Below, in pieces: positions 18,932-41,963 of a stretch of DNA of 41,963 nt. The position numbers and the translations under genes were made by a program. Position 1 is the stretch's first letter; each line of letters begins with the position of its first letter. The stretch is from an uncultured Eubacterium sp. (lineage in GTDB: Bacteria > Bacillota > Clostridia > Lachnospirales > Lachnospiraceae). The stretch spans positions 1 through 41,963 of the forward strand of contig CANDJC010000030.1 of NCBI GenBank assembly GCA_947384955.1, written 5' to 3'. The notes beneath the pieces were generated by a model. That model saw nothing but the letters and a program-made list of their open reading frames with translations. It ran no database searches and was not told where the DNA came from.

Positions 18932-19172
18932 GCCGGGTGACGGGAAGATGCCCTGGCTTCCAGTGACATTGGAGGAATGTTTAGAATCCCTTGGCATTCT
19001 GCCCAATAACCAGGCGGCGAAGCCGAAGCGGCACCTTTAGCTGCTGGCAGAAGGCCAGGGCGAACTAGGTGCCGCGTTCCGTCCGGTACCACAACGCAGA
19101 CGCAGAATGCCTAGGGATTCTTAACATTCCAGAGCCGGAACCGGAAGCCAGGGCATCTTCCCGTCACCCGGC
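18932..19172 (+). repeat. palindromic structured element, copy A
   Basis: Terminal arms GCCGGGTGACGGGAAGATGC... and its complement pair perfectly over 30 bp. Inside, 29-nt arms (18974-19002 and 19102-19130) pair with two T/T mismatches. The core holds GCGGCACCT/AGGTGCCGC and CTGGC/GCCAG stems. The left flank carries a single degenerate array-type unit on the opposite strand. The right flank GTCCGCGCCGCC plus a C-rich tract is shared with copy C. It sits 41 bp past the end of the cysteine desulfurase gene. Confidence 0.9.
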
Positions 19173-19212
19173 GTCCGCGCCGCCACTCCCCTCCCCCTCC
19201 CCATGTCTGGAA

Positions 19213-20367
19213 TCACTCCCTCTCATCCTCCGCCACTTCCCTCAGCAGCCTCACATTCTCCACCACCGCATCTGCCGCCACCCGGATTTCCTCCGCCGTC
19301 GTAGCCTCCCCCAGCGTCATGCGAAGCGTCCCCGACGCAAGCTCCCTCCCCCTTCCAATCGCCGTCAGCACATGCGACGGTTCCGCAGAGCCAGTCGAGC
19401 ACGCCGATGCCGCCGAAGCACAGATATCCTTTGCATCGAGCAAAAGCAGCAGCGTCTCCCCCTCAATCCCTTCAAAGCTGAAATTCACATTATTCGGAAG
19501 CCTTGCATAGCGGTCCCCATTCAGCCACGCTCCCGGAATCCTTCCCGCAATCTCATGAATCAGAAAATCCCGCAGCCTTGTCTCACGGTAAATGCGTTCC
19601 GACATCGTGCGCACTGCCAGTTCCGCTGCCGCTCCCATTCCTACAATGCCCGGCACATTCTCTGTCCCGGCACGCCTTCCCATCTCCTGTCCTCCGCCAT
19701 GAAGGAAGGAAGCTGTTTTGATGCCGTCCCGGATATATAAAAACCCGGTTCCTTTAGGCCCGTAAAACTTATGTCCGCTTGCGCTTAACAGGTCGATATG
19801 ATAAAAATTCACATCCACCGGAACCTGCGCATATGCCTGTACCGCATCTGTATGGAAAACAATGCCGTGGCGTCTGGCAATCCGGCCAATCTGCGCTGCC
19901 GGCTCCATTGTGCCGATTTCATTGTTGGCAAACATGACCGAAATCAGAATCGTATCCGGCCGTATGGCTTTTTCCAGCTCCGCCAGACGGATAAATCCCT
20001 GCGCATCCACTGGCAGATACGTTACCTCATATCCCTGTTCTTCCAGATACCGGCATGTGTTTAAGACCGCATGGTGTTCTATCTGAGTCGTAATAATATG
20101 CCTGCCGTAATCCTTATATGCCTCGGCAGTTCCTTTGAGCGCCCAGTTATCCGATTCGCTGCCTCCTGCCGTAAAATAAATCTCCCTCGGACTGGCATGC
20201 AGGGACCTCGCAATAATTCCCCGCGCATGTTCCACAGCTTCCCTGCTTTTTTCGCCAAATTCGTATATCGTAGATGCATTGGCGTAATCTTTTGAAAAAT
20301 ACGGCTGCATAATCTCTGCTGCCTGCTCTGCCAGCGGTGTTGTAGCTGCATGGTCCAGATATATCAT
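19213..20367 (-). CDS. cysteine desulfurase (NifS/IscS-like)
   Basis: A 384-residue PLP enzyme that takes sulfur from cysteine to a persulfide for Fe-S clusters or tRNA thiolation. Landmarks: N-terminal YLDHAATTPL; EHHAVLNT with the cofactor-stacking His; the PLP lysine in SASGHKFYGPKG; RAGTENVPG; and the catalytic Cys in ASACSTGS on a long loop. Length is normal for the group. AAGGAGG precedes the ATG. No iscU, nifU or mnmA gene is adjacent in this window, so the sulfur acceptor cannot be assigned. Confidence 0.94.
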   Translation of the reverse strand: MIYLDHAATTPLAEQAAEIMQPYFSKDYANASTIYEFGEKSREAVEHARGIIARSLHASPREIYFTAGGSESDNWALKGTAEAYKDYGRHIITTQIEHHAVLNTCRYLEEQGYEVTYLPVDAQGFIRLAELEKAIRPDTILISVMFANNEIGTMEPAAQIGRIARRHGIVFHTDAVQAYAQVPVDVNFYHIDLLSASGHKFYGPKGTGFLYIRDGIKTASFLHGGGQEMGRRAGTENVPGIVGMGAAAELAVRTMSERIYRETRLRDFLIHEIAGRIPGAWLNGDRYARLPNNVNFSFEGIEGETLLLLLDAKDICASAASACSTGSAEPSHVLTAIGRGRELASGTLRMTLGEATTAEEIRVAADAVVENVRLLREVAEDERE

Positions 20368-20499
20368 AAAAGTTCCTCCTTATTATCTTATTATGTACAC
20401 ACGATATCTCTGTCCGGATTCCCATTTGCTTCTTTTATGCACATAAATTTTTTACCGGCTCATATATTTTATAAGACGCTATCAGCAGGAGAGTAATTT

Positions 20500-21813
20500 A
20501 TGCCAGACTTATCACCATTCAAAAAATATGCCAGTCATCCTGTACTGCTTGGCACAGCGCTGCTTACGGCTACCGGACTTGCCAGCCGGGTAATCGGCTT
20601 CTTTTATAGAATATTCCTTTCTCATACAATTGGTGCACAGGGAATGGGAATTTACCAGCTTATCTTTCCGGTTTTTACACTTGGTATCGCATTCTGTGCT
20701 GCCGGAATTCAGACTGCCATCTCAAAATATACGGCTGAGGCGGAAGGCTCTGGACACTGCCCTCAGGTCTTTTTGTATGCCGGGCTGCTTCTTTCTGTCA
20801 GCCTCTCGGTTTTATGTGCTTTTCTCATTTACAGCTGTTCTGATATCATAGCTGTCACGATACTGGATGAACCGCGCTGCGGGATGCTGCTGCGCATTAT
20901 CGCACTGTCGCTGCCGTTAGCTGCTGTCCACTCCTGTATCAACGGCTATTATTACGGCCTGCAGAAAACCTTTGTGCCCTCTGTATCCCAGCTGTTAGAG
21001 CAGGTATGCCGTGTTTTATGCGTATACATCATCTACCGTATCTGCCAAAACCAGGCACAGCCTGTAACCGCTGCCATGGCGGTCTGGGGCATGGTATTCG
21101 GCGAACTGGCCGGAGCGCTTTTTTCTCTCACCGTCGTCCGTTTCACCAGATGCAGCAGGCATTTTCTGGCCTCCATGCGCCGGATTTTTACTTTTTCTGT
21201 ACCGCTGACTGCAAACCGGGTACTGATTAATTTTATTAACAGTGTGGAAGCGATTCTGATTCCTGTCTGCCTGAAATCTTACGGCTATTCGAACGAAGAT
21301 GCCCTGAGTATTTTTGGAATTCTGACCGGAATGGCAATGCCGATGATTCTGTTTCCTTCCGTATTAACAAATTCCGTGTCTGTCATGCTGCTGCCGTCGA
21401 TTTCCCAGGCAAAGGCGCAGAAAAACCAGGCACTGATCCGCCGCACCATACGGCGCACAATCGAATCCTGCCTGGTCCTTGGGTTTGCAAGCACCCTGTT
21501 TTTCCTTCTGACTTATTCCTTTATCGGACAGTATTTATTTGCAAATACCCTTGCGGGCATTTATATCCGTACACTCAGCTTTATCTGCCCGTTTATGTTT
21601 CTTACTACCACCTTAAACAGTATCCTGCACGGACTCGGACATCCGACCGCCACGCTGCTGCTGAATCTGGGCGGATGCCTGATACGGATTGCGTTTATCT
21701 GGATGTTTGTACCGGTACACGGTATCCGGGCCTATCTGTACGGCATGCTTGCCAGCCAGATTGTAACCGCATCCTGCGCCGTTTTCCTTTTAAACCGTTC
21801 CAAAGATGTCTGA
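20500..21813 (+). CDS. SpoVB/MviN-like oligosaccharide flippase
   Basis: A 437-residue polytopic membrane protein of the polysaccharide-flippase (MATE/MOP) superfamily. The N-terminus LTATGLASRVIGFFYRIFLS and IGAQGMGIYQLIFPVFTL matches stage V sporulation protein B and related lipid-II or oligosaccharide flippases. It is shorter than Bacillus SpoVB (about 520 residues), so a sporulation role is not certain. CAGGAG lies about 10 bp before the ATG. It is divergent from the cysteine desulfurase and convergent with the GH36-like gene. Its stop codon lies inside a direct repeat shared with the latter's 3' end. Confidence 0.88.
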   Translation: MPDLSPFKKYASHPVLLGTALLTATGLASRVIGFFYRIFLSHTIGAQGMGIYQLIFPVFTLGIAFCAAGIQTAISKYTAEAEGSGHCPQVFLYAGLLLSVSLSVLCAFLIYSCSDIIAVTILDEPRCGMLLRIIALSLPLAAVHSCINGYYYGLQKTFVPSVSQLLEQVCRVLCVYIIYRICQNQAQPVTAAMAVWGMVFGELAGALFSLTVVRFTRCSRHFLASMRRIFTFSVPLTANRVLINFINSVEAILIPVCLKSYGYSNEDALSIFGILTGMAMPMILFPSVLTNSVSVMLLPSISQAKAQKNQALIRRTIRRTIESCLVLGFASTLFFLLTYSFIGQYLFANTLAGIYIRTLSFICPFMFLTTTLNSILHGLGHPTATLLLNLGGCLIRIAFIWMFVPVHGIRAYLYGMLASQIVTASCAVFLLNRSKDV

Positions 21814-21876
21814 AACGGAATCGTAATATGCCACGGCCTGAGACGCTTTTTCTTACTGAAGCGGAATCGTAATATG
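21810..21876. repeat. 21-bp direct repeat at convergent gene ends
   Basis: ctgaaacggaatcgtaatatg (21810-21830) recurs with one change at 21856-21876, a period of 46 bp. The second copy is the end of the GH36-like gene (HITIPLQ-stop region) and the first spans the flippase stop codon. Confidence 0.75.
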
Positions 21877-23484
21877 AAACAGGCTGTCATTGCTTTCCAG
21901 ACCTGAACCGGACTGCTCATACCAGTTATATTCCGTCTGTCCGTTTTCGTCTTTCCAGATTTCCGGGCAGTCAGTTTCTTTCCAGTCCGCAGGTATTTTA
22001 TGGCAGGACTGGGAAGAAGCCTTTACCAGTATCTTTCGAAGCTCTTCTTTTTCTGTGTCGTTTAAAAGTCCCGGTTTTGCAGATACAAACAGCGGCGTGC
22101 CGCTTTCTGCAATTACATCAGCCCACTGGCGGTTTAAATTCCATGGAATATTTCCTGCAATTCCCACGCAGTCAGCGTCCACATCGTAAAACGTCCTGTG
22201 CTGCGGCAGACGGAACGCAAGTGTATTGATTCCCATACGCCTCGTGCGCTCCCAGTTCTTTCCGCTCGTATCGTCCCCTGTCCGGTTCGCGTGCATCAGC
22301 CCGGCGCCCAGATGCCCGATGGTATTGCATCCGATAATTATCGCATTGTATTCTTTCGTTACATCATAAACGGCCTGATACAGCATCTTTACCACTTCCG
22401 CACTCGTTTTGCCGCGGTCATAAAAATGCCAGCCGTCATGTGTTACAAACGGATTCATCTCAAATCCCCAGCGGCCAAACAAATCAAACGTAGAAAAATC
22501 ATGCTTAATCAGTTCATAGCCCCATTCGCAGATTCTTCTGACATCCTGTCTGATATATTCAAGCGCCTCTGGATGGGAAGGGTCCAGACATCCGTTATAA
22601 GAAATCCTCCATTCATCCGGTACCGCTTCATCTTTATTCAGCAGAAAACGTACCCAGATGCCGGGATGTACGCCTTTTTCGGCAAGTTTTTTCGCAAGCC
22701 CTTTCATATCCGGAAATCTGCTGTTGCCGCACCTCCACGGCCCGCCGTTGTATTCATCCAGCCGGTGGTGCTCCTGCCAGCAGTCGTCAATCACCATAAA
22801 CGGAGGATTTGCAGCGCCTTTCGTCAGTTCCAGGACATAATCCGTATCGCTTAAAATCTCCTCCTCGCAGCTTTGTCCATAAGCATAATACCAGTTGTTG
22901 CTGCCATAGACCGGAACATCCGGGAAAATCGGATCCGGACACATCAGGCGGCAGAAATCTTTCGCAAAACGAAACGAATCCGTGCCGTCTTCTTCCATAC
23001 ATACAAATTCCGCCGCTTTTAACCGTCTGCCGTTTAACACAACGCCGTCTCCGCCGCACCGTACATCTAATACAAGCGTAATGCCCCTTGTATCAGCCTG
23101 CCAGTAACACATTGCGGACGGCCTTGTCCTGACCCCGAATCCATACTGCCTGTCAGCGGCAGAGGCCAGAAAATACCATGGCATAAACCGGTTTCCGCTG
23201 ATACCGCGCCATTCTAAATCCCCATAGCCGCGCTCCCATGCATCTCCTAAAATCCGCACCTGCTTTGGCAGCGGCTGGTTCCACCGGAATCGTATCCATT
23301 CAACCGGAGCTGTATCCGCAGTCAGATAGATGGCAGACGCTTCTGCATCCTCCTCCCATTCCACGCAGATATCCGGCACACGGATGCTGCTGCCTTCGCG
23401 GCGTATCTGATATGTTTCCCCGGCTGTTTTAATCGTCACATAATCAAACGAGCCAAATTCCAGCGGTTTTTTTTGTTCGCTCAT
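21853..23484 (-). CDS. GH36-like (clan GH-D) alpha-galactosidase-type hydrolase
   Basis: A 543-residue cytoplasmic protein (no signal peptide). An N-terminal beta-sandwich region (1-190) is followed by a TIM barrel with FMVIDDCWQ, GIWVRFLL, the nucleophile-region motif LIKHDFST, and NRTGDDTSG, which contains the likely acid/base Asp. These fit clan GH-D enzymes (GH27/GH36/GH31-like) acting on alpha-linked galactose or related sugars. It is shorter than classical GH36 (about 700 residues). GGGAGA precedes the ATG. It has no transporter neighbour; substrate is not determined. Confidence 0.8.
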   Translation of the reverse strand: MSEQKKPLEFGSFDYVTIKTAGETYQIRREGSSIRVPDICVEWEEDAEASAIYLTADTAPVEWIRFRWNQPLPKQVRILGDAWERGYGDLEWRGISGNRFMPWYFLASAADRQYGFGVRTRPSAMCYWQADTRGITLVLDVRCGGDGVVLNGRRLKAAEFVCMEEDGTDSFRFAKDFCRLMCPDPIFPDVPVYGSNNWYYAYGQSCEEEILSDTDYVLELTKGAANPPFMVIDDCWQEHHRLDEYNGGPWRCGNSRFPDMKGLAKKLAEKGVHPGIWVRFLLNKDEAVPDEWRISYNGCLDPSHPEALEYIRQDVRRICEWGYELIKHDFSTFDLFGRWGFEMNPFVTHDGWHFYDRGKTSAEVVKMLYQAVYDVTKEYNAIIIGCNTIGHLGAGLMHANRTGDDTSGKNWERTRRMGINTLAFRLPQHRTFYDVDADCVGIAGNIPWNLNRQWADVIAESGTPLFVSAKPGLLNDTEKEELRKILVKASSQSCHKIPADWKETDCPEIWKDENGQTEYNWYEQSGSGLESNDSLFHITIPLQ

Positions 23485-23592
23485 AAACTGATTCTCCCTT
23501 TCATAATCTTAATCCTTATTCCGCCGCTATCCTTCCTCCTGTGCCTGCAATGCAGATAGTTCAGCAGCGGACGCTGCTGCCCGGAACAGCCG

Positions 23593-24693
23593 TCAGCCCC
23601 AAAAAGCCTCCTCCTGCTGCCATTCCCGTTCCGTTTCCTTTGCAAGGGAATCGCTGATGTCCGCTACCGCCGCGGCTTCTTCCGCCGACATGCCGCGCCT
23701 GCGGCAGTTCCTGTATACTGCTTTTCCTTTGCTCTCTTCTCCTTCTGCCTTTCCTTCTGCCCTTCCTTCCCGAAAACTTCTCAAAGTCTGCAGTTCCAGC
23801 ACTTTTCCGCCCATCGCTTCTTCCACTCCCTTCCTTATTTTCTTTCCTGTTTTTCGGAATGCATATCTTGCTACAGTCTGCACCATTTCTGTCAGCCCCG
23901 CATACAGCACGGCTTTATCTTTTTTATCTGTCTCCTCTTTCAGGCGCGCGCATACATCCTTTAAGTCTTCCAGCACTGTCCTGGCAGCCTCCGTATCCGG
24001 GTCTTCCTGCTTTTCCATTTCCTTTATCTGAGCCTCATACCGAAGCACATAGTACGGCAGAAAAACAAACAGCTGTTTTTCAAAAATCTCTTCTTTTGTA
24101 TATTTCTGCACATTTACTGCCGGAACATGATACCGGTATACAAAACCGTCCGCAAATTCTATTTCCATCTCCAGTTCTTCCGGGATGCTGCCGTCATCAC
24201 GGATATACATAACGCATGACTGCGGAAACCGGATGCGGTAACACATGTTCTCCTGCCGCCCTGCGCCGGACTTTTCCTTTTCCTTCAGCCATCGCGGATG
24301 TTCCAGTGCAATTGCCATGTCATAAGCTGCCATGCGGATAATCATGTTCGCATCTTTGGTACTCTGGCATTCGGCATGGAAACACCGTCCTTCAATCATA
24401 AGTACACAGTCTGTAATAATTTTGCCGCCCGGCTCCATGTGCTCGTTACGCAGCTGAATGATTTCCACATCCTGCGGATAATGTGTCCCGAATACCTCGT
24501 TAATCAGCGAAATCAAAAGCTCTGGAAACTCCTCCACAATTGTGCGGAATACATCGTCAAACAGTGTCGTGCTGAACGTTTCTTCATCATGCACGTTTTC
24601 GCTTTCTCCAGACTCCGCCGCCGAAGACTGCTCCGTTGTTTTGATACTGCTCTGGACAGTCTTTGTTTTGTCTTTTTCTTTGTTTTTCTTCAT
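23593..24693 (-). CDS. Rpn/PD-(D/E)XK nuclease-family (transposase-like) protein
   Basis: About 366 residues. The first 35 are charged and low-complexity. The core FDDVFRTIVEEFPELLISLI, then NEVFGTHYPQDVEIIQLRNE, then ITDCVLMIEGRCFHAECQST, is the PD-(D/E)XK site of the Rpn/transposase_31-like group (Asp, then E-x-Q). Residues near 300-325 are rich in KAEG/RAEG, a common tail in the family. Rpn proteins are recombination-promoting nucleases with possible anti-phage roles. The start is odd: an upstream ATG (24717) has no ribosome site and overlaps the promoter, while the ATG at 24693 coincides with the predicted transcript start, implying a leaderless mRNA. Confidence 0.82.
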   Translation of the reverse strand: MKKNKEKDKTKTVQSSIKTTEQSSAAESGESENVHDEETFSTTLFDDVFRTIVEEFPELLISLINEVFGTHYPQDVEIIQLRNEHMEPGGKIITDCVLMIEGRCFHAECQSTKDANMIIRMAAYDMAIALEHPRWLKEKEKSGAGRQENMCYRIRFPQSCVMYIRDDGSIPEELEMEIEFADGFVYRYHVPAVNVQKYTKEEIFEKQLFVFLPYYVLRYEAQIKEMEKQEDPDTEAARTVLEDLKDVCARLKEETDKKDKAVLYAGLTEMVQTVARYAFRKTGKKIRKGVEEAMGGKVLELQTLRSFREGRAEGKAEGEESKGKAVYRNCRRRGMSAEEAAAVADISDSLAKETEREWQQEEAFWG

Positions 24694-24699
24694 ACCCTG

Positions 24700-24728
24700 A
24701 TTATACAATGCAAACATAAAATTAGCAA
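24700..24728 (-). promoter_or_regulatory. promoter of the Rpn-like gene (leaderless arrangement)
   Basis: On the minus strand TTGCTA, a 17-bp spacer and TATAAT, with only 6 bp between the -10 box and the ATG at 24693. It is divergent from the marR promoter, the two -35 boxes lying about 18 bp apart. Confidence 0.6.
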
Positions 24729-24746
24729 TATATCATCCGAATCTTC

Positions 24747-24775
24747 TTGACAATAGTATGAAATCATACTATAAT
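24747..24775 (+). promoter_or_regulatory. consensus sigma-A promoter of marR-MATE
   Basis: Perfect TTGACA (24747-24752), a 17-bp spacer and perfect TATAAT (24770-24775). The spacer is almost wholly taken up by an operator palindrome, so a bound regulator would block RNA polymerase. Confidence 0.88.
24754..24771. promoter_or_regulatory. MarR operator O1
   Basis: TAGTATGA-AA-TCATACTA is a perfect 8+8 inverted repeat with a 2-bp centre, between the -35 and -10 boxes. Size and symmetry fit a dimeric MarR protein, most simply the one encoded just downstream. Confidence 0.75.
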
Positions 24776-24779
24776 CCAA

Positions 24780-24797
24780 TGGTACGATTTCATACTA
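24780..24797. promoter_or_regulatory. MarR operator O2
   Basis: TGGTACGATTTCATACTA matches O1 read on the other strand at 16 of 18 positions. It lies just past the predicted transcript start. The centres of the two sites are 26 bp apart, compatible with co-operative repression. Confidence 0.65.
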
Positions 24798-24800
24798 TAT

Positions 24801-24852
24801 AGGTTTCTAATAAAGGTTTCTAATGAAGATTTTTAATGGAGGTTTTTAATGA
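24801..24852 (+). repeat. four 13-bp tandem repeats covering the marR ribosome site and start
   Basis: Units aggtttctaataa, aggtttctaatga, agatttttaatgg and aggtttttaatga follow without gaps. The last supplies the ribosome site region and the ATG (24849). Copy number could change by slippage and alter leader length. Confidence 0.8.
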
Positions 24853-25295
24853 AGACTTATGTATCTAAAGAAATGAACCGCTGCAACTATCTGCTGGGCG
24901 AAATTGACGCCGTATACCATGAGCTGTCTAAAAAACTCGGCTTATCCGACAGCGCTATGCGCATTTTGTATACAATCTGTGACATTGGAGACTGCTGCCT
25001 GTTACAGGAAATCTGCCGCCGCGGCGGCCTGAGCAAGCAGACGGTCAATTCTGCCATACGCAGACTGGAAGCAGACGGAATCCTGTTTTTAAAACCGGCC
25101 GGAGCAAAAAATAAGAAAGTCTGCCTTACCGGTCAGGGCAAAACTCTTATCAGCCAGACTGTCATACGTATTATCCAGGCCGAAAACGAAATCTTTGCAG
25201 CCTGGCCGGCAGAAGATGTTTCAAAATACCTGGAATTAACGGAACGGTATCTGACCGACCTGCAGGAAAAGAGCAGAGTTTTCCAGGCTGAATAA
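24849..25295 (+). CDS. MarR-family transcriptional regulator
   Basis: A 148-residue winged-helix protein. The helix-turn-helix is in LLQEICRRGGLSKQTVNSAI followed by RRLEADGIL, and the wing is in LKPAGAKNKKVCLTGQGK; flanking helices form the dimer interface. The gene lies 51 bp upstream of a MATE exporter, the usual MarR-efflux operon layout. Two copies of an 18-bp palindrome in its promoter indicate autorepression of the operon, probably relieved by an exported compound. The divergent Rpn-like promoter lies close enough to be affected as well. Confidence 0.9.
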   Translation: MKTYVSKEMNRCNYLLGEIDAVYHELSKKLGLSDSAMRILYTICDIGDCCLLQEICRRGGLSKQTVNSAIRRLEADGILFLKPAGAKNKKVCLTGQGKTLISQTVIRIIQAENEIFAAWPAEDVSKYLELTERYLTDLQEKSRVFQAE

Positions 25296-25346
25296 CCCAG
25301 GCTGCCAAAATCTGCAGCTAAATAACCAAAAGGAGATAACACAGCA

Positions 25347-26705: not shown

Positions 26706-26714
26706 GACAGCATT

Positions 26715-26764
26715 AAAAAAGGAGCCGCCGCACTAAGAAAAAATTTTCTTAGTGCAGCAGCCCC
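26715..26764 (-). terminator. terminator of the zinc-ribbon/DUF5685/J-domain operon
   Basis: On the minus strand a long stem, with core GCACTAAGAAAA paired with TTTTCTTAGTGC (26730-26755) and further GC pairs outside, runs into TTTTTT (26715-26720). It may also end the MATE transcript on the plus strand, where it is followed only by CCCCTTCTCTTC. Confidence 0.75.
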
Positions 26765-26918
26765 TTCTCTTCTGCCCCGTCAGATTTCCGATTCCTGCTG
26801 CCGTCATACCGCTCCGGATTCACATCCGCACCGATTCGTAAAAAATCTGCTCCCGGCGAAAATCCGCATTCGATTCCGATTCCAGTTCCTGTTCCATTCT
26901 TCCAAACAGCTAAAACCG

Positions 26919-27521
26919 TTAAAATCCGCAGCAGCACGTACAGCACATATTCATCATTACCATAGACATACAGAACCGGTTAAAGCTCTCATACGGCCTG
27001 CCATAACTCGTCCCCATGCTGCTGTACCAGCTGCCTCCAAAATTCAGCTGCTGCATCAGCTGTCTGTATTCAATATTGCTCGGCTCTAACTGCACAGCCT
27101 GTTCCGCGCACTCCCGTGCCGTCATATTATTGCCGAGTCCCGCATTCGCAACTGCGCTGTAATAATACCACCTGGCTCCCCGCTCGCTCATGCTGTTTAA
27201 TACATTTAAAGCTTCCTGATAATAGCGGTTTGCCAGATAATTTGCCACCGCCTGCATTTTCGGCGTTTCCTGCGTCTGTCTGCCAAAACCGCCGTACCTT
27301 GCAGAGCCGTAACCGGTAAAACTGCTTCCCTGCTGCTTTTCCTGCATAATCTGGTTATACGCCTGCTGGATTTCTTTAAACCGCTCCTCTGCCTGCTCCC
27401 TGTTCGGATTATTCACATTGGCATCCGGATGATATTTACGGCTTAATGCCCGGTATGCTTTTTTTATTTCTTCATCTGTTGCACCGGGTTTTATGCCCAG
27501 CACATCATAAGGATTTCCCAT
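26919..27521 (-). CDS. J-domain protein with a TPR-like segment and Cys-rich tail
   Basis: A 200-residue protein. The N-terminal J domain (1-70) has [20 protein letters not shown] and the essential HPD in RKYHPDAN, so it should stimulate an Hsp70 (DnaK). A Gly/Gln-rich linker follows. Residues about 95-160 look like paired TPR helices ([19 protein letters not shown], then [15 protein letters not shown]). The tail ends MCCTCCCGF with five cysteines. It lacks the zinc and substrate domains of DnaJ, so it is a specialised co-chaperone. It is the last gene of a three-gene operon with DUF5685 and a zinc-ribbon membrane protein. Confidence 0.88.
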
Positions 27522-29169: not shown

Positions 29170-29219
29170 CCCTAATTTTGTGAGGGGGAATAAGAAGAGG
29201 GGGATTTGGCTGTGCGGAC

Positions 29220-29455
29220 GCCGGGAGAGGGGATTTGGCGGGATTTCTGCGGCTGCTCCAGAATGTTAAGAATCCCTAGGCATTCTGCATCTATGCTGTG
29301 GCCCCGGACGGTCGCGGCACCTGGTTCGCCCTGGCCTGCAGCCAGCAGCTAAAGGTGCCGCTTCGGCTTCGCCGCCTGGTTATTGGGCAGAATACCAAGG
29401 GATTCTAAACATTCTTCCAATGCCGCAGAAATCCCGCCAAATCCCCTCTCCCGGC
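29220..29455 (-). repeat. palindromic structured element, copy B
   Basis: It is oriented opposite to copies A, C and E. Its terminal arms (GCCGGGAGAGGGGATTTGGC... and complement) pair perfectly over 34 bp, yet differ from the arms of A, C and D. The core is the same: 29-nt inner arms, GCGGCACCT/AGGTGCCGC-type stem and CTGGC/GCCAG hairpin. The flank GGACGCCGGG mirrors the CCGGCGTCCG of copies A and C. The tandem array begins at its other edge. Confidence 0.9.
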
Positions 29456-29870
29456 TGGTTTTTGAATAGATTTACTTGAATTATCCCAGGCACTGCTTCT
29501 CTTCACGGCTGGTTTTTGGATAGTTTTACTTGAATTATTTCTGACATCGCTTCTTTTCACGGCTGGTTTTCGGATAGTTTTACTTGAATTATTTTTGACA
29601 TCGTTTCTTTTCACGGCTGGTTTTTGGATAGTTTTATTTAAAATTTTTCAGACACTGCTTCTTTTCACGGCTGGTTTTCGGATAGTTTTACTTAAATCAT
29701 CTCTGACGCTGCTTCCTTTCTTGATTGATTTCCATGATATTTCTTGAAATCCCTCAAATACAGCTTCCTTTCACGGTTGATTTTCATATGATATTTCTTG
29801 AATTATACCTGACACTTCTTCTTTTCACGGCTGATTTTTGTATAATATTTCTTAAAATTCCCCTGACACC
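29452..29870. repeat. tandem array 1, 54-bp period, 8 units
   Basis: Unit starts of the type CGGCTGGTTTT fall at 29452, 29506, 29560, 29614, 29668, about 29721, 29774 and 29828, so the period is 54 bp (one step of 53). Each unit continues with TTTTACTTGAATT and TTCTTTTCA-type tracts. The last three units are diverged. The array lies between element copies B and C. Short open frames exist on the minus strand (SSKTIQKPAVKR-like repeats), but there is no ribosome site and I regard it as non-coding. Confidence 0.9.
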
Positions 29871-29972
29871 ACACCGTTCCCATACCATATTTCCCAGCAT
29901 CTTCCTGCCGCCTTCCATACAAAATCCATCCCGCCATCTACAATTCTTCACGTAAAACTTCCCCAAAAAACA

Positions 29973-30212
29973 GCCGGGTGACGGGGAGATGGCCTGGCTT
30001 CCGGCGACATTGGAGGAATGTTTAGAATCCCTTGGCATTCTGCCCGATAACCAGGCGGCGAAGCCGAAGCGGCACCTTTAGCTGCTGGCTGCAGGCCAGG
30101 GCGAACCAGGTGCCGCGACCGTCCGGAGCCACAGCATAGATGCAGAATGCCTAGGGATTCTTAACATTCCGGAACCGGAGCCGGAAGCCAGGCCGTCTCC
30201 CCGTCACCCGGC
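29973..30212 (+). repeat. palindromic structured element, copy C
   Basis: Terminal arms pair over about 33 bp with one position that would be a G-U pair in RNA. The inner core is nearly identical to copy A. It is oriented opposite to copy B across array 1. The right flank GTCCGCGCCGCC with C-rich tract is shared with copy A. rnpB begins about 100 bp beyond it. Confidence 0.9.
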
Positions 30213-30308
30213 GTCCGCGCCGCCAGTCCCCCCTCCCTCCCCCGCACCACAATTTTTCAAAAAAACACTTTACAATTCCCACAATATATGATTGAATATT
30301 CTGTGAAC

Positions 30309-30663
30309 GCAAGCAGGATAAATGATCGCGGCTGCAAGTGTCGAAAGACCGCAGGTGAGGAAAGTCCGGGCTTCACAGGGCAGGATGCCGGATAACGTCC
30401 GGTGGAGGCGACTCCCAGGAAAGTGCAGCAGAAATATACCGCCAGCCGGCACAGTTCCAGGCTGGTAAGGGTGGAATGGCAGTGTAAGAGACTACCGCCT
30501 TTCTGGTAACAGGGAGGGCACATGTAAACCCCATCCGAAGCAAGACCGAGCAGAAGCATTGACGCGGCCCGCCAGCTTCAGGTAGGTCGCTTGAGACGGC
30601 TGGCAACAGCCGCCCTAGACAGATGATCATTCCAGACAAAACCCGGCTTACAGTCCTGCTTGC
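30309..30663 (+). ncRNA. rnpB: RNase P RNA (bacterial type A)
   Basis: The catalytic RNA of RNase P, which matures tRNA 5' ends. Conserved blocks appear in order: GAGGAAAGTCCGGGC; the AGAAATATACCGCC region; AAGGGTGGAATGGC; GGTAACAGGGAGGGC; CCATCCGAAGCAAGACC; GGTAGGTCGCTTGAG; and the 3' block ATGATCATTCC...ACAAAACCCGGCTTACAG. The ends GCAAGCAGGA and TCCTGCTTGC pair as P1. The layout is the ancestral type A. A possible TTTACA -35 box is at 30269. A strong terminator follows. Confidence 0.96.
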
Positions 30664-30667
30664 GCCA

Positions 30668-34085: not shown

Positions 34086-34088
34086 AAA

Positions 34089-35378: not shown

Positions 35379-35413
35379 TTATTTCATCCTCTCTTGGTTT
35401 CACATGCTTATCT

Positions 35414-37207
35414 TTACACTGGTAAATTCAGTAAAAACTCTTTCCTCCGCAATTCTTCAAGCATTTTTTTCTCCTGAAGCATCTGTTCAAACCGCTCTTT
35501 CACCCCTTGTGCGTCCTGGTTTTCACGGAGCCGCAGCAGCCTGTTTTCTTTTAATTTTAAAATCGTATCTTTTAAAGCCTTCCCGCGCTCGGCTTCGGTC
35601 TTTATTTCGGCAATGGTTTCATGAAACGCCGACACAATCTCGCGCTGGTCTTCGATATCTTCAAAATGCCCCGGTATCTGTGCCAGATGTAACGTCCCGG
35701 ATTCTAACTGCGCAAACAGCTCCGTGGCAGCCGTGCGGCACTTCTCATCCGGGAAATCCTCCGGGGTAATGTATTCGCGTATTACAGGATACAGCGCCGG
35801 CTGCTCGCTCAGCCAGGTTAACAGCAGCTTCTGCGCTTTTTTGATTCCGTCTTCCTTATGGCTTTCTTTTTTATGAATGCCGGATTTTAACGGCTCGGGC
35901 TTTCTTACCATCCCGGCCTGCATGCTGACCTGTGCCACCAGCCTGCGCAGATTTTCAAAACCGGTCTGATATTTCTGCGCAACCGCTTCTATATAATTAT
36001 TCCGCTCTATGTCCTCTGTAAATTCCAGTAATTTTCTGGCAGTTTCCTGATAGAACGCAGTTTTGCCCTGCGGATCTGTCATATCATAATTCTGCTCCAA
36101 AATACGGATTTCAAACATAAAGCTGTTTTCTGCTTCATCAATTCTTTTCTGATACTCCTGCGCGCCCAGTGCTTTGATAAATTCATCCGGGTCCTTGTAC
36201 GGCTGCATGCGGATAACCTTCGATGTAATGCCTGCTTCTTTCAGTATCGGAATCGCCCGCAGCGCTGCCTTAATACCCGCGCCATCGCTGTCAAACGTCA
36301 GATAGACTTCTTTTGCATAACGCTTTAACAGGCTGGCATGCCCGCTCGTAAACGCGGTACCGAGGGATGCCACGGCATTATCAAATCCAGCCTGGTGCAG
36401 TGCGATGACATCCATATATCCCTCGCACAGCAGCATCTGCGGACGCCTTGACTGCCTGGCCAGGTTCAGGCCGTACAGATTTCTGCTTTTATCAAAAATC
36501 TGCGTTTCCGGAGAATTTAAATATTTCGGCTCTCCTTCTCCCATCACTCTTCCGCCAAAGCCGATAATCTTATTATGCACATTCATAATCGGAAACATCG
36601 CCCTGTTCCAGAATTTATCATGCGCGCCCCGTTTTTCGTCCAGCGTAATCAGCCCGGAATCCTTCAGCAGCCTGTCGTCATAACCTTTGGACTTTAAATA
36701 ACGGTATAAATCGTCGCTGTATTTATCCGAATAGCCCAGGCCGAACTTTTTCATCGTCTCATCTGTGAGCTCACGCATTTTAAAATATTCCATGGCATGC
36801 GCGCCGCGTTCACTGCGAAGCAGCATATAATAATATTTCCCGGCTTCCCTGTTTACTTCTAAGAGCCTCGAACGGTAGTCCGATTCCCGTTTTTCCTGTT
36901 CCGAGCGCTCTTTTACCGGAAGCCGGATGCCGGCCCGTTCAGCCAGTGACTCCATGGCTTCCTGAAACGTATAATTTTCATACTGCATCAAAAACCCAAA
37001 CACATCTCCCCCGGCTCCGCATCCAAAGCAGTGATACATCTGCTTATTCTGCGATACGTTAAAAGAACCGGTTTTTTCGTTATGAAACGGACAGAGCCCG
37101 ACATAACTGCTGCCTTTTTTCTGCAGCCGCACATACCCGGATATGACGTCTACAATGTCATTCGCGGAACGCACCTCTTCTTTTATCTCATCTGAATAAA
37201 ACGGCAT
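35414..37207 (-). CDS. dnaG: DNA primase
   Basis: A 597-residue primase that makes RNA primers for replication. It has an N-terminal CHC2 zinc finger (CPFHNEKTGSF...YHCFGCG), a catalytic core with the Toprim motif LLCEGYMDVIALHQAG and acidic FDSDGAGIKAA, and a C-terminal helicase-interaction region. I chose the ATG at 37207 (MPFYSDEIKEEV) because family members start there and AAAGGA lies upstream; a longer in-frame start at 37273 would overlap dgt. The gap to rpoD is 35 bp. Confidence 0.96.
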   Translation of the reverse strand: MPFYSDEIKEEVRSANDIVDVISGYVRLQKKGSSYVGLCPFHNEKTGSFNVSQNKQMYHCFGCGAGGDVFGFLMQYENYTFQEAMESLAERAGIRLPVKERSEQEKRESDYRSRLLEVNREAGKYYYMLLRSERGAHAMEYFKMRELTDETMKKFGLGYSDKYSDDLYRYLKSKGYDDRLLKDSGLITLDEKRGAHDKFWNRAMFPIMNVHNKIIGFGGRVMGEGEPKYLNSPETQIFDKSRNLYGLNLARQSRRPQMLLCEGYMDVIALHQAGFDNAVASLGTAFTSGHASLLKRYAKEVYLTFDSDGAGIKAALRAIPILKEAGITSKVIRMQPYKDPDEFIKALGAQEYQKRIDEAENSFMFEIRILEQNYDMTDPQGKTAFYQETARKLLEFTEDIERNNYIEAVAQKYQTGFENLRRLVAQVSMQAGMVRKPEPLKSGIHKKESHKEDGIKKAQKLLLTWLSEQPALYPVIREYITPEDFPDEKCRTAATELFAQLESGTLHLAQIPGHFEDIEDQREIVSAFHETIAEIKTEAERGKALKDTILKLKENRLLRLRENQDAQGVKERFEQMLQEKKMLEELRRKEFLLNLPV

Positions 37208-37260
37208 CTGCCTGATTTCCTTTCTGTCATCCGCTGTCTGTCCCGGCCTCTGCCAGCTTT

Positions 37261-38265
37261 TTAAATCTGCCACTGCAGCGGCACGTAATATTCATTAAAT
37301 TTTGCAATTGCATACTGGTCGGTCATGCCCGCAATATAATCGCAGACTGCCCGGTCCGGCCTTTCTCCCTCTTTTATCATATCCGTAAACTGCTGCGGCA
37401 TCTGTCCGGGCCGCTTCATATAATAATAAAACAGGCGCTCTAACAGTTCTTCGGCTTTTTTTTCCTCCCGTTTTGCCACCGGATTATGATACAGATTTTG
37501 AAACATGTACCGGCGCAGCCCTTTCATGGCGTTTTCCACCTCCGGCGACATGAAAATATCATCTTTACCCATGCTGTTCGTAACAATATTATGTATTAAA
37601 GTATTCAAACGCATACGCACGCCTGTCCCCAAAATCTCCCTGTATTCCCGCGGTATATCCTCCTCGCACAGAATCCTGGCCCGGACGGCGTCATCGACAT
37701 CATGATTAATGTATGCGATTTTATCTGAGAGCCGCACAATCCTCCCTTCTAACGTAGCCGGCATGCTGCTCATCTGGTGATTTAAAATCCCGTCCCGCAC
37801 TTCTTTCGTCAGATTTAATCCTTCCCCGTGTTTTTCTAACTTTTCCACAATGCGTACACTCTGCTCATTATGCTTAAAACCCCCTTCGCACAGACTGTTC
37901 AGCATATATTCCCCGGCATGTCCAAAAGGCGTATGCCCCAGGTCATGCCCGAGAGCGATGGCTTCCGCTAAATCTTCATTTAAGCGCAGCGCTTTTGCAA
38001 TCGTACGGGCATTCTGGGACACTTCTAATGTATGGGACATACGTGTGCGGTAATGGTCGCCTTTCGGCGTCAGAAATACCTGCGTCTTATTTTTTAATCT
38101 GCGAAATGCCCTGCTGTGCAGTATTCTGTCCCTGTCACGCTGATAAACCGGACGGATATCGCACGGTTCCTCTTCGCGGTCCCTTCCGGCAGACTCATCG
38201 CTGAATGCTGCATACGGACTAAGAAGCGCATGTTCCCTTTGTTCCATTTCTTCACGTATCGTCAT
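37261..38265 (-). CDS. dgt: dGTP triphosphohydrolase (HD family)
   Basis: A 334-residue HD-domain dNTPase. Motifs: SRAFRRLKNKTQVFL; HYRTRMSHTLEVSQNAR with the first His; and ALGHDLGHTPFGHAGE, which holds the HD metal pair. It belongs to the shorter Dgt-like group (E. coli Dgt is about 505 residues). These enzymes cut dNTPs to nucleoside and triphosphate. It heads the dgt-dnaG-rpoD cluster. AGGAAGGGG lies about 9 bp before the ATG. Confidence 0.93.
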   Translation of the reverse strand: MTIREEMEQREHALLSPYAAFSDESAGRDREEEPCDIRPVYQRDRDRILHSRAFRRLKNKTQVFLTPKGDHYRTRMSHTLEVSQNARTIAKALRLNEDLAEAIALGHDLGHTPFGHAGEYMLNSLCEGGFKHNEQSVRIVEKLEKHGEGLNLTKEVRDGILNHQMSSMPATLEGRIVRLSDKIAYINHDVDDAVRARILCEEDIPREYREILGTGVRMRLNTLIHNIVTNSMGKDDIFMSPEVENAMKGLRRYMFQNLYHNPVAKREEKKAEELLERLFYYYMKRPGQMPQQFTDMIKEGERPDRAVCDYIAGMTDQYAIAKFNEYYVPLQWQI

Positions 38266-38359
38266 GAGGAAAATCCCCTTCCTTGATTTAAATTCATCCT
38301 CCTTACCTATAAAATTCTGTATTTTTTTCGAAAATCCTTTATTTTTTTCAATTTTTTTG

Positions 38360-38365
38360 TATAAT
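38360..38365 (+). promoter_or_regulatory. -10 box upstream of the GT-C membrane protein
   Basis: A perfect TATAAT follows a T-rich stretch (38342-38358), 45 bp before the start codon at 38411. No good -35 hexamer is visible at 16-18 bp; the T-tract may compensate. Confidence 0.45.
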
Positions 38366-38410
38366 CATATGAGAGCGCGTTTGAAAACGATAACACAAGG
38401 AGCTTCCCGC

Positions 38411-40231
38411 ATGCATGAATTTCTAAAAAAACAACACAATACCATATTATTTCTGTTATTTTCCGGCATCATTTTCCTTTTCCGTATCTGGTATATCAGG
38501 GACTGCAATGTACTGGCTATCCGCAACGACGAATACGGCTACTGGTCCCATGCCGCGCTGCTGACCGGACACGACTGGTCCGATGTCCTCTCCGGGCACA
38601 TGAACTGGTATTCGTACGGCTACAGCCTGATTCTGGTGCCTTTGTTCTGGTTCAGCCACAATCTTCACCTGATGTACAAAACAGCTATTGTATTTAACGG
38701 AATATTTGCCGTCCTGACCTTTTATCTGTGCATCCGGTGCGCAGTCCTTTTATTTCCCAAAATCGAACGCTGGCTGCTGCTCACCGCTTCCTTTATGGTC
38801 TGCATGTATTCTTCCTATATCACGCAGGGGCCGATTGCCTGGAGCGAAACGTTTCTGTATCTGCTTGTATGGCTGCTTTTGTATCTGTTTCTCTGTTTTG
38901 AACAGGAGCCTGACTTAAACCGCGCGCTCTGCTTAAGTCTCTGCATGGGCGGCTGTTACATTACCCATAACCGGACCATTGGCATTGTGACCGCATATAT
39001 TATGACCGTTTTGTTCCTGCGCCTGACAGATGCCATTGACTGGAAGCTTTTTGCCGCGCTGCTGCTGCCGCTAACCGCAGTTTTATTTGTCAATGTAAAC
39101 ATAAAAACATATCTCTGTATGATGGAGGGCTTCGGCCTGAAACCGAAAAACGGCATGGGCGCGCAGAAAGACCACCTGCTCTCCCTTTTAACTGTAAACG
39201 GCTGGCAGAATCTGCTCCGTGCACTCAGCGGACAGCTCTGGGGGCTTATGACCTCTTCCTTCGGGCTGTTTTACTGGGGAATGCTGCACTGCGCCGGACG
39301 CATTCTGCATGCATTCCGTACAAAAAAGCCTGGAAAGCATACTTCCTTTTACCTGTTCACGCTGCTTTCCTGTACCGGAACCTTTTTAATTTCAGCTATC
39401 AGCCTGATAGACCCGGCTTCTATTACAAACCTGAAATCCGATACAGACCTGACTTACTTTATTTATACGCGCTACGACGAGTGCATCATCGGTATCCTGC
39501 TGCTTTTGGGCTTTTTTGAATCTGCTTTCCAAAGGCGGAAGCTGCAGTCAGTGCTGTACACGGCCGGCGAAGTCTTATTTTATACTGCCGTAAGCATTGT
39601 ATTATATTTTAACCTGCAAAGAATCGAAGATACCTGGCATTACCGCTCCTTCTGCGCAGCAGGAATCGGGTTTTACCGGCTGTTTTCCGAGGAATTTTCA
39701 CTTCGCTGGTGTATTATCATAGGTGTGACTGTATCTCTGGCGCTGTTTCTTCTATGCTGCCTGTATCGGATGCGGTTTCAGAAACGGTATTTAGCTGCCG
39801 CCTGTCTTATGCTGACCGTGGTCTTTATCCCATCCGGCCTGTATTCAGCAAAAATCGGCACCATTAATTCCCAGCTTGGTAAAGTGTCTTCTGGAAATCT
39901 GGACCTGTATGGTCAGCTGAAGGATGTGGTCAGTGACCGGGATGTATACTGTACACTGGATGATACCAAAAACTACCGGATTGCATACGAACTGCAGGTA
40001 AACCTCATTGACACTCACGTCTATTCTATTACATTGGAAGATCTTCCCGCACAGGAAGAAGGATATTTTATCTGCTGCAGCAGCGGTGACCTCGGTAATT
40101 TTGAAGGAGATGATTATTACATGCTGACACAGAGCAGATATTATGCCGCTGTTGTAAAAGGAGATGCACTGGCCGAAGAGGTATCTGCGAAAACCGGGAA
40201 AGAGCTGGTAAACCTGGATGTCCTGGAATAG
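38411..40231 (+). CDS. GT-C-type membrane glycosyltransferase-like protein
   Basis: A 606-residue polytopic membrane protein with about 11-12 hydrophobic helices and a C-terminal extracytoplasmic segment of about 110 residues. After the first helix, AIRNDEYGYWSHAALL has the acidic D-E pair seen in the first outer loop of GT-C glycosyltransferases (GT39/GT83, ArnT-like), which use polyprenyl-phosphate sugars; CYITHNRTIGIV is also family-like. I chose the ATG at 38411 because AAGGAG is 10 bp upstream; the open frame extends back to 38264 without a ribosome site. It stands alone, divergent from dgt; acceptor and donor are unknown. Confidence 0.78.
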   Translation: MHEFLKKQHNTILFLLFSGIIFLFRIWYIRDCNVLAIRNDEYGYWSHAALLTGHDWSDVLSGHMNWYSYGYSLILVPLFWFSHNLHLMYKTAIVFNGIFAVLTFYLCIRCAVLLFPKIERWLLLTASFMVCMYSSYITQGPIAWSETFLYLLVWLLLYLFLCFEQEPDLNRALCLSLCMGGCYITHNRTIGIVTAYIMTVLFLRLTDAIDWKLFAALLLPLTAVLFVNVNIKTYLCMMEGFGLKPKNGMGAQKDHLLSLLTVNGWQNLLRALSGQLWGLMTSSFGLFYWGMLHCAGRILHAFRTKKPGKHTSFYLFTLLSCTGTFLISAISLIDPASITNLKSDTDLTYFIYTRYDECIIGILLLLGFFESAFQRRKLQSVLYTAGEVLFYTAVSIVLYFNLQRIEDTWHYRSFCAAGIGFYRLFSEEFSLRWCIIIGVTVSLALFLLCCLYRMRFQKRYLAAACLMLTVVFIPSGLYSAKIGTINSQLGKVSSGNLDLYGQLKDVVSDRDVYCTLDDTKNYRIAYELQVNLIDTHVYSITLEDLPAQEEGYFICCSSGDLGNFEGDDYYMLTQSRYYAAVVKGDALAEEVSAKTGKELVNLDVLE

Positions 40232-40355
40232 GTTTCCTGCCAGTACCGGTTTTTCGCCGGAAACGGTGTTTGTATAAGCTGCCGGCTAAAATTCCGGCAC
40301 TGCAGATGGAACCGGCAGTTTCTGGAAGCGCTGGCAGCTGTAAAATAAAAAGGAT

Positions 40356-40400
40356 GCAGAAAAAAATAAGAACCCGAAAACCGGATTCCTATTTTTCTGC
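40356..40400. terminator. bidirectional terminator
   Basis: AATAAGAACCCG (40365-40376) pairs, with G-U allowance, with CGGATTCCTATT (40382-40393). T-tracts flank both sides: TTTTTTC on the minus strand, ending tRNA-Leu(CAG), and TTTTTC on the plus strand, ending the GT-C gene. Confidence 0.78.
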
Positions 40401-40408
40401 TCTGCAAG

Positions 40409-40492
40409 TGCAGAAGATGGGACTTGAACCCACACGACATTGCTGCCACAGGCACCTGAAGCCTGCGCGTCTGCCAATTCCGCCACTTCTGC
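40409..40492 (-). tRNA. tRNA-Leu (anticodon CAG)
   Basis: On the minus strand the acceptor stem GCAGAAG pairs with CTTCTGC, with discriminator A. The anticodon stem CAGGC/GCCTG encloses TTCAGGT, giving CAG (reads CUG). A long variable arm and T-arm GGTTCAAGTCCC follow. No encoded CCA. Confidence 0.96.
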
Positions 40493-40506
40493 TTGGCACA
40501 ATAGGT

Positions 40507-40535
40507 ATATTACACTATATAGCAGAATTCGTCAA
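40507..40535 (-). promoter_or_regulatory. promoter of tRNA-Leu(CAG)
   Basis: On the minus strand TTGACG, a 17-bp spacer and TAATAT, about 15 bp before the tRNA 5' end. Same spacing and -10 box as the other tRNA-Leu promoter at 108-136. Confidence 0.7.
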
Positions 40536-40617
40536 GGGGGTTTTTGAAAATTTTTTCATTTTTTGTGGCTGTTTGGGTGAGGGTGTGTGTTTATGGTGTG
40601 TTTATGGCCCCTCGGAC

Positions 40618-40857
40618 GCCGGGTGACGGGAAGATGCACTGGCTTCCTGTGACGGCTCCGGAATGTTAAGAATCCCTAAGCATTCTGCTTCTGCGCTGTG
40701 GTACCGGACGGACCGCGGCACCTATTCGCCCTGGCTTTCTGCCAGCAGCTACCGGTGCCGCTTCGGCTTCGCCGCCTGGTTATTGGGCAGAATGCTAAGG
40801 GATTCTAAACATTCCTCCGATGTCACAGGAAGCCAGTGCATCTTCCCGTCACCCGGC
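40618..40857 (-). repeat. palindromic structured element, copy D
   Basis: Terminal arms pair perfectly over 36 bp (start GCCGGGTGACGGGAAGATGC, end with its complement). Relative to copies A and C the arm has GCAC/GTGC in place of GCCC/GGGC or GGCC/GGCC, and an inner G-C pair is replaced by A-T (CTTAGC/GCTTAG), so changes occur on both sides. Orientation is opposite to A, C and E. Array 2 starts at its right edge. Confidence 0.92.
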
Positions 40858-41735
40858 TGGTTTTCGCTGGCTTTACTTGAAATTGCCTGTCACCTGACTG
40901 ATTTTCACTGGCTTTACTTGAAGTTGTCCGTCACTCGGCTGGTTTTACTTGAAATCATCTGTTATCCGGCTGGTTTTCGCTGGCTTTACTTGAAATTGCC
41001 TGTTACCCGGCTGGCTTTACTTGATTTCGCCTGTTACCTGGCTGATTTTCACTGGCTTTACTTGAATTCGCCTGTCACTCAGCTGGTTTTCACTGGCTTT
41101 ACTTGAATTCGTCTGTACCCGGCTGGTTCGCTGGTTTTACTTGGAATCGCCTGTCACTCGGCTGGTTTTACTTGAAGTTGCCCGTCACTCGGCTGGTTTT
41201 ACTTGAATTCGCCTGTTACCCGGCTGGTTTTCGCTGGTTTTACTTGAAATTGCCTGTCACCTGACTGGTTTTACTTGAAATCACCTGTTACCTGGCTGGT
41301 TTTCACTGGCTTTACTTGAATTCGCCTGTCACTCAGCTGGTTTTCACTGGCTTTACTTGAATTCGTCTGTACCCGGCTGGTTCGCTGGTTTTACTTGGAA
41401 TCGCCTGTCACTCGGCTGGTTTTACTTGAATTCGCCTGTTACCCGGCTGGTTTTACTTGAATTCGCCCGTCACTCGGCTGATTTTAATTGAATTCGCCTG
41501 TTACCCGGCTGGTTTTACTTGATTTCGTCTGTTACCCGGCTGGTTTTCGCTGGTTTTACTTGATTTCGCCCGTCACTCGGCTGATTTTCACTGGTTTTAC
41601 TTGATTTCATTTGTTACCCGGCTGGTTCACTGGTTTTACTTGATTTCGCCTGTTACCTGGCTGGTTTTCGCCGGTTTTACATAAACCGCCTGTCACCCGG
41701 CTGATTTTCACTGGTTTTACTTGAAATCGCCAGAC
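40854..41735. repeat. tandem array 2, about 24 units of 31 or 41 bp
   Basis: Units have the form CGGCTGGTTTT(CGCTGGTTTT)ACTTGAATTCG followed by CCTGTCAC or CCTGTTAC. Long units (about 41 bp) carry an extra TTTTCGCTGG-like duplication and short units (about 31 bp) lack it. About 24 ACTTGA-type cores can be counted. A block of about 140 bp near 41036 recurs near 41290, so the array has also grown by larger duplication. It lies between element copies D and E. No supportable gene; both strands are broken by stops. Confidence 0.92.
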
Positions 41736-41836
41736 GCTCTGCTGAATATTTATATACATCAGACATTCTATAAACTGCCGCCGGATTATATCTATTCCGC
41801 ACCCAAAATGTCTCATATAACGTCTGCCACAAAACA

Positions 41837-41963
41837 GCCGGGAGAGGGGATTTACCAGGTCTTCCTGCGGCATCGGAAGAATGTTTAGAATCCCTTGGCA
41901 TTCTGCCCGATAACCAGGCGGCGAAGCCGAAGCGGCACCGGTAGCTGCTGGCAGAAAGCCAGG
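41837..41963 (+). repeat. palindromic structured element, copy E (cut by window end)
   Basis: The left arm GCCGGGAGAGGGGATTTACC resembles copy B's start but then differs. The inner arm GAATGTTTAGAATCCCTTGG and the GCGGCACC and CTGGC core are present. The sequence ends after GCCAGG, so the right half is not seen. Orientation matches A and C and is opposite to D across array 2. Confidence 0.85.

Follow-up and report, generated by a model that had tools for sequence, protein, structure and literature searches.

A high-copy 240-bp palindromic repeat related to TwoAYGGAY RNAs, with candidate ends of a non-autonomous mobile element in an uncultured Eubacterium

We analysed a 41,963-nucleotide stretch of DNA from an uncultured Eubacterium sp. 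(contig CANDJC010000030.1, positions 1 to 41,963; hereafter the window) that carries five copies of a 240-bp imperfect palindromic element. Four copies (A–D) are complete and the fifth (E) runs off the contig end at 41963. All five lie where an initial annotation of the sequence had placed them (18932, 29220, 29973, 40618 and 41837). They comprise one single element (A) and two head-to-head composites (B-C and D-E), with B and D inverted relative to A, C and E:

18932..19172, + strand: copy A, single element, arm type T1
29197..29219: left outer flank of composite B-C, an imperfect inverted counterpart of the right flank
29220..29455, - strand: copy B, T2 arm, left end of composite B-C
29456..29972: B-C spacer, filled as far as ~29870 mainly by tandem 54-bp units (about 4.4 + 2)
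29973..30212, + strand: copy C, T1 arm, right end of composite B-C
30213..30235: right outer flank of composite B-C
40618..40857, - strand: copy D, T1 arm, left end of composite D-E
40858..41836: D-E spacer, a 31/41/254-bp tandem array as far as ~41740
41837..41963, + strand: copy E, T2 arm, right end of composite D-E, interrupted by the contig end

Arm types are assigned from a short 5'-arm motif, T1 in copies A, C and D and T2 in B and E; by this motif, some copies of a second family in the same genome (see below) are mislabelled T1 or left as '?'. The arm letters had been quoted correctly in the initial annotation (GCCC/GGGC in A, GGCC/GGCC in C, GCAC/GTGC in D and TTTGGCGGG/CCCGCCAAA in B), and the change of an inner pair from G-C to A-T in copy D is real. 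The arm of copy B, which had been set apart as unlike all others, does differ from them; it is the second arm type, common to E, and not a stray variant. The array unit of composite D-E is similar to the T1 5' end: CCAGCCGGGTRACAGGC.

Each element has a long outer stem, a conserved inner stem and a pair of adjacent hairpins; the inner stem holds two T.T mismatches separated by ten positions. The stem has 30 + 27 pairs and the structured centre spans 100 nt. Folding energies are far beyond chance, both for copy A folded as RNA (z = -16.4) and for copy D folded as DNA (z = -17.5).

We identified 539 half-sites (274 + 265) of the core pattern, at up to two mismatches, in the 5.06-Mb genome, against one for a reversed-pattern control; the genome therefore holds about 270 copies. 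BLAST matches to the element come from 10 of 61 genomes and are confined to the genus; in two of the ten, G001 and G004, the matches are only short or single. A stricter pattern is present in 8 of 13 genomes of the genus, and the pattern-bearing named records, among the matches listed, are uncultured Eubacterium and Eubacteriaceae assemblies. Our survey of element anatomy covered 1.81 of the 5.06 Mb (about 36%) and yielded 202 matches, 99 of them near-complete. The resulting 96-copy alignment excludes three near-complete matches that score below 150 and the 103 partial matches (59 at stretch ends).

None of 41 sited clusters falls inside a long open reading frame (ORF); since ORFs below 330 nt, and ORFs below 900 nt overlapping an element, were removed before counting, this figure holds for long ORFs only. 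No clear preference for gene orientation was detected (tandem in 34 of 41 element gaps vs 520 of 753 background gaps), and the outer ends point towards stops and towards starts in comparable numbers (21 and 30 for T1, 15 and 16 for T2). The gene adjoining copy A is not accompanied by an element, by eye, in the stretches of relatives inspected.

Paired change in the stems had been proposed from the window copies, with a genome-wide count and a statistical check of covariation as a way to examine it. Among the 96 aligned copies, paired change that keeps the helices lies far above shuffles. In the outer stem of the 96 copies (30 pairs, 2832 cells), 2394 cells hold the commonest pair, 410 a double Watson-Crick change, 16 G.U, 7 A.C and 5 another state; 99.6% of cells are paired, vs 83.4% after shuffling. 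By simple arithmetic, double changes are about 18 times as frequent as G.U or A.C cells (410 vs 23). Comparison of each copy with its nearest by core (74 comparisons) gave 214 two-sided Watson-Crick pair differences, 45 one-sided differences and 5 two-sided differences of another state. One base pair is absent from both sides in 37 copies and from one side in none, which is largely the T1/T2 difference and may go back to a single event.

The same holds across the genus. Among 35 genus-wide sequences, both sides changed at least once in 42 of 71 pairs (21.7 when shuffled), two-sided change affects 260 cells (63 when shuffled), and 98.4% of cells pair, compared with 37-45% after sliding by 1-3 columns. 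All five covariation measures exceed all 500 shuffles. The alignments were hand-chosen (A1, 35 sequences, 14 from this genome and 21 from the genus; A2, 25 sequences), and permutation and binomial values throughout are guides only, because copies within one genome are not independent.

Some positions are held against this drift. The two inner-stem mismatches are T.T in 96 of 96 copies of this genome, all 35 aligned genus copies have T at the four positions concerned, and the mismatches recur, by eye, in complete copies of the second family. The arms are therefore not simply homogenised, and the retained mismatches speak for selection on the fold. Mean pairwise difference is 5.5-6.1% in the inner stem vs 11.9-14.5% in the outer arms and core.

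Change in concert also links the two ends of a composite. Cores are 94.3% identical within composites vs 89.5% between them, a value that 0 of 10000 permutations reach, and in 15 of 23 composites none of 58 T1 copies is closer by core than the composite's own partner (one of the 23, L175, is untyped, so its partner falls outside the 58). By region, identity within vs between composites is 0.933 vs 0.878 for the core and 0.937 vs 0.917 for the inner arm (0 of 5000 permutations in each case), and 0.659 vs 0.657 for the outer arm (2321 of 5000), which shows no concert. Concert between ends thus takes in the core and inner stem and does not extend into the outer arms. The small number of intermediates (410 vs 23) and the concerted cores speak for one strand templating the other, and the two-sided absence of a base pair fits such templating. 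The initial annotation had offered selection on structure or copying of one arm from the other as causes; each has support, from the retained T.T mismatches and from the few intermediates and concerted cores respectively, and neither alone fits the data.

Complete units have a constant geometry. All 21 complete pairs typed at both ends are arranged head to head as [T2 reversed]-spacer-[T1], and two more complete pairs with one untyped end are also head to head. Among 60 neighbour pairs less than 4 kb apart, head-to-head orientation is found in 51 (23 complete, 28 incomplete), and the 9 exceptions are all incomplete. Relatives contribute 11 distinct complete pairs less than 3 kb apart, every one of them head to head. 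The outer flanks of composites are inverted as well.

The spacers of the 21 complete typed pairs range from 132 to 2471 bp and are private: two of them have one 53-nt stretch in common (102 of 15398 nt, with 70 nt trimmed per end). Private tandem arrays make up many spacers. A few bear genes (L145 122-1507; L095 9061-11533; L094 88-669 and 9866-10750; L123 11237-12516). Among the spacer genes are an ORF of SocA/Panacea antitoxin type with a second ORF beside it, a ParE-type ORF, an HTH_3 ORF and a GNAT acetyltransferase, and one spacer ORF of 324 codons has no Pfam match. Toxin-antitoxin-like genes occur in 3 of 5 gene-bearing spacers. At L153 and L093 (T1 3' flanks) and at 40858-41740 of the window, the element's stem base plus flank is tandemly duplicated on either side, as if replication had slipped at the foot of the hairpin.

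We compared orthologous sites with genome G008 (397 kb, 84 reciprocal best hits, 58 syntenic neighbours). Four element-bearing sites (L103, L118, L127 and L137) have no element in G008, and L118 and L137 alone were used, as L103 is uninformative (the G008 gap is longer, 1718) and L127 is a remnant. At both L118 and L137 the composite, spacer included, is missing from G008, with gaps of 1249 and 1200 bp in this genome vs 179 and 157 in G008. The L127 remnant (7214-7355) is a collapsed composite in which a T1 left arm is fused at CATTCTG to a T2 right arm. At the L137 site, G008 retains a scar of outer-flank and arm pieces and G010 a fragment; in G001, G003, G005, G006 and G007 no element was seen by eye in the stretch inspected.

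Composite B-C sits on the promoter side of the RNase P RNA gene (window 30310-30666). This gene is antiparallel to both neighbour genes and has the other orientation in the inspected relatives L235, L236, L239 and L246. Because the gene is inverted there, the locus does not provide a clean empty-site test, and it was rejected for that use. Elsewhere in the window, a cobalamin riboswitch at 2011-2232 exceeds the Rfam cut-off (35.4 bits).

The elements are related to TwoAYGGAY (Rfam accession RF01731, clan CL00106). In the portions of the sources consulted, TwoAYGGAY appears in a 2010 table as a probable RNA that is neither cis-regulatory nor a switch (PMC2864571), was proposed in 2014, as a prediction, to be a CsrA-binding RNA of Clostridia (PMC4333381), and is described in a 2025 preprint as relatively unexplored (PMC11661157). 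We built a covariance model of the core (R1) from 25 window-type copies only. R1 matches 5 of 200 genomes of the bacterial family, this genome included. Within this genome it detects the second family, most copies at 60-68 bits, and in other genera it finds copies in G078 (6), G178 (8), G197 (2) and G211 (10), with 150 candidates scored per genome. R1 positions 1-158 are matched in second-family and other-genus copies that are themselves RF01731 matches; by covariance model, the inner stem and the two adjacent hairpins are homologous. The outer arms of other-genus copies have very different letters yet remain paired, with an arm score above all 200 shuffles in 26 of 26 copies with enough flank.

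All six other-genus loci tried, with each of the four genera represented, match RF01731 at 53-130 bits, above its curated cut-off of 43 bits. Two of eight second-family copies at three loci (L116, L132 and L152) also exceed this cut-off, at 66.5 and 66.2 bits. The window copies have no match to RF01731 at the gathering cut-off, and copy A has none even at E 10. The earlier view that the element belongs to no named family thus stands for the exact copies (copy A has no credible match in Rfam as a whole at E 10 or better) and fails for their relatives. On the best reading, the window copies are a derived TwoAYGGAY branch without conserved GGA loops.

The loops differ accordingly among lineages. 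Hairpin 2 is GGC-GAA-GCC in 95 of 96 copies of this genome, with an AAA loop in the remaining one; these copies have no AYGGAY loops there, and no conserved GGA loop of the paired kind that a CsrA sponge would carry. Among relatives, 71 hairpins fitting GGC-NNN-GCC comprise 29 GAA, 19 GGA, 14 GCA, 1 GTA and 8 AAA loops, a count in which some loci overlap and other hairpin forms are left out. The hairpin 3 loop is variable across the 35 genus-wide copies, and one hairpin 3 pair is U-G in 26 of these and U-A in 8. In G078, G178 and G211, both predicted hairpin loops contain GGA in 23 of 27 copies, and the remaining 4 have it in a single loop; the two G197 copies have GGA in neither predicted loop.

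Head-to-head arrangement extends to these relatives. It is seen in all six second-family pairs that lie no more than 1.2 kb apart, and in the close neighbours at two R1-matching loci (L304 and L324). RF01731 occurs in 35 of 200 family genomes, several with at least 13 scored candidates; among the matches listed, five of six RF01731 pairs less than 600 bp apart are head to head by eye and the sixth is in tandem. The literature surveyed, in the portions consulted, holds no account of these repeats in the genus, nor of TwoAYGGAY as mobile or head-to-head.

Stem wobble mildly favours one strand. Across all stems, G.U cells outnumber A.C cells (29 vs 11; binomial p 0.006, uncorrected for relatedness). 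This excess, the GGA loops on that strand and the U-G pair of hairpin 3 suggest that folding is specific to one strand, either as RNA or as single-stranded DNA. GNA triloops are stable in DNA, and the GGC-GNA-GCC form, which occurs with all four N across the genus, is a hint of DNA as the folded strand. In that case GGA in the loops of other genera would answer to a separate constraint or serve a secondary purpose.

We also considered CsrA as a correlate of element number. Extra CsrA ORFs are more numerous in several element-rich genomes (3 in G000, 3 in G002, 6 in G003, 5 in G005, 4 in G007 and 3 in G078), with 0-1 in G001, G004, G006, G011 and G012, which have no pattern hit. G008, G009 and G010 contradict the trend (0, 1 and 1). 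The link was dropped in view of these exceptions and because the one extra ORF examined adjoins flagellin, a simpler cause. A tyrosine-recombinase-like ORF (by eye) at L116 11711-12760 lies beside a CsrA ORF and a large repeat-bearing flagellin-like gene.

We favour, with modest confidence, the reading that the 240-bp palindromes are derived-TwoAYGGAY structured ends of a high-copy non-autonomous mobile element whose unit is [T2 reversed]-spacer-[T1]. This reading builds on observed features: the copy number, the geometry of complete units, two whole-unit absences, homology by covariance model, paired change and concerted cores. A full unit would comprise two folded ends head to head with a private, sometimes gene-bearing spacer between them, and would spread by transposition with an enzyme supplied in trans. 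This enzyme may recognise one folded strand, RNA or single-stranded DNA, and the arms would be kept complementary through selection for the fold, aided by template switching inside the hairpin. A bolder version, possible although doubtful, is that TwoAYGGAY 'RNAs' at large form the paired termini of a novel class of mobile element, one that travels as a single folded strand and has the head-to-head pair as its unit; the enzyme would read the fold and not the sequence, and intrastrand copying would keep both the stems complementary and the cores of a unit alike.

Several observations weigh against the favoured reading. No transposase was found in the 14 scanned of 24 spacer ORFs of at least 80 codons, with 1.81 of 5.06 Mb read, and no target-site duplication was detected in 23 composites (longest shared word 4.57 within vs 4.68 between), whose exact ends are uncertain. 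Plasmid and phage collections, and viral contigs searched with the exact pattern, yielded no element copy. The scar at L137 makes that absence in G008 a loss, and the L118 flanks fail to align cleanly with G008. In G002, G005 and G008 the two ends of a pair look alike by eye, so arm types are not fixed in the genus. Neighbours are not always head to head: two RF01731 cases at 1.6-1.7 kb are in tandem among the matches listed, and G078 has one further pair tail to tail and one in tandem. Homology of the window copies to RF01731 is transitive, with copy A failing that model and only two of eight second-family copies passing it. The bias towards one strand is mild, and the outer stem taken by itself (G.U 16 vs A.C 7, p 0.09) gives no significant excess.

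The main alternatives account for parts of this evidence. The copies could be structured regulatory RNAs and not mobile at all, that is, CsrA-binding sponges of the TwoAYGGAY type that form, in this genome, a large multigene family. GGA belongs to the CsrA consensus binding motif. The paired GGA loops of G078, G178 and G211, the presence of a CsrA domain in 15 of 17 genomes and the published sponge prediction (PMC4333381, in the part consulted) all agree with this. The window-type copies and the two G197 copies lack such loops, and the extra CsrA ORFs of several element-rich genomes have, in the one case examined, a simpler cause in the adjoining flagellin gene. Sponge function also leaves head-to-head units, private spacers and whole-unit absences unexplained. 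We regard it as unlikely. Pure mutational homogenisation, in which template switching at replication corrects any long inverted repeat and no selection on the fold is required, likewise seems an improbable full account. Template switching is a published route to paired stem changes (PMC8794818, in the part consulted), and it would explain the excess of double changes over intermediates and the homogenised cores of a composite's two inverted ends. As sole cause, it predicts that T.T sites become complementary at the rate of other sites, which is seen in 0 of 96 copies; the conserved inner stem and the mild G.U excess, which indicates one strand, also argue against it.

Movement by a Y1 (RAYT-type) transposase, as for REP/REPIN-like repeats, is very improbable. 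The elements resemble several tagged REP families in being high-copy, extragenic, palindromic, head-to-head heterodimers (PMC3733652, in the part consulted). They differ in that a stem of 30 + 27 pairs and a structured centre of 100 nt take the place of a short hairpin. A RAYT-like or other mobilising enzyme had been suggested as worth seeking in the genome; no link emerged, as Y1 transposase count is unrelated to element count across 13 genomes (G004 has 54 Y1 matches and 0 pattern hits; G002 has 0 Y1 and 155 half-sites).

The favoured mobile-element reading can be set beside known systems. Miniature inverted-repeat transposable elements (MITEs) are non-autonomous and bounded by terminal inverted repeats. 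The window-type units are likewise non-autonomous and intergenic with inverted ends, and the whole unit is absent at two orthologous sites. They differ from MITEs in that each of their ends forms a palindrome of its own, whose arms covary, the spacers are non-homologous and no target duplication, as DDE-type MITEs would show, was seen. We know of no parent transposase for the element. Tagged REPs and REPINs (GTAG/CGTC families, RAYT) share extragenic siting, high copy number, palindromy and frequent head-to-head heterodimers (PMC3733652); the window element is 240 bp long vs 20-40 bp for a REP, and its structured centre, its private spacers with genes or arrays and its lack of relation to Y1 number set it further apart. 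The R-box is a feature of integron attC sites, and no R-box-like pairing was seen by eye at the stem base of the window element. The attC site is similar in that recognition depends on its folded structure and its sequence is little conserved (PMC2727003, in the part consulted), and differs in that the window elements are head-to-head pairs scattered genome-wide and not cassette arrays.

The closest counterpart is TwoAYGGAY RNA itself, which shares the inner stem and two adjacent hairpins, several copies per genome and head-to-head neighbours. It is unlike the window copies in that these fall below its cut-off and carry a GGC-GNA-GCC hairpin in place of the two conserved AYGGAY loops. TwoAYGGAY is a described family of unknown function, with one functional proposal in the portions of the literature surveyed, the predicted CsrA sponge; its abundance, its head-to-head neighbours and the branch with about 270 copies in one genome make its function testable as a mobile element end, a regulator or both. 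The repeat set also offers a useful natural experiment on the upkeep of complementarity in long stems: selection, seen in the fixed T.T mismatches, and templated copying, seen in the few intermediates and concerted cores, leave separate marks in the same molecules. The finding is real, extends far beyond the window and is tied to a known, unexplained RNA family, of which it offers a new reading.

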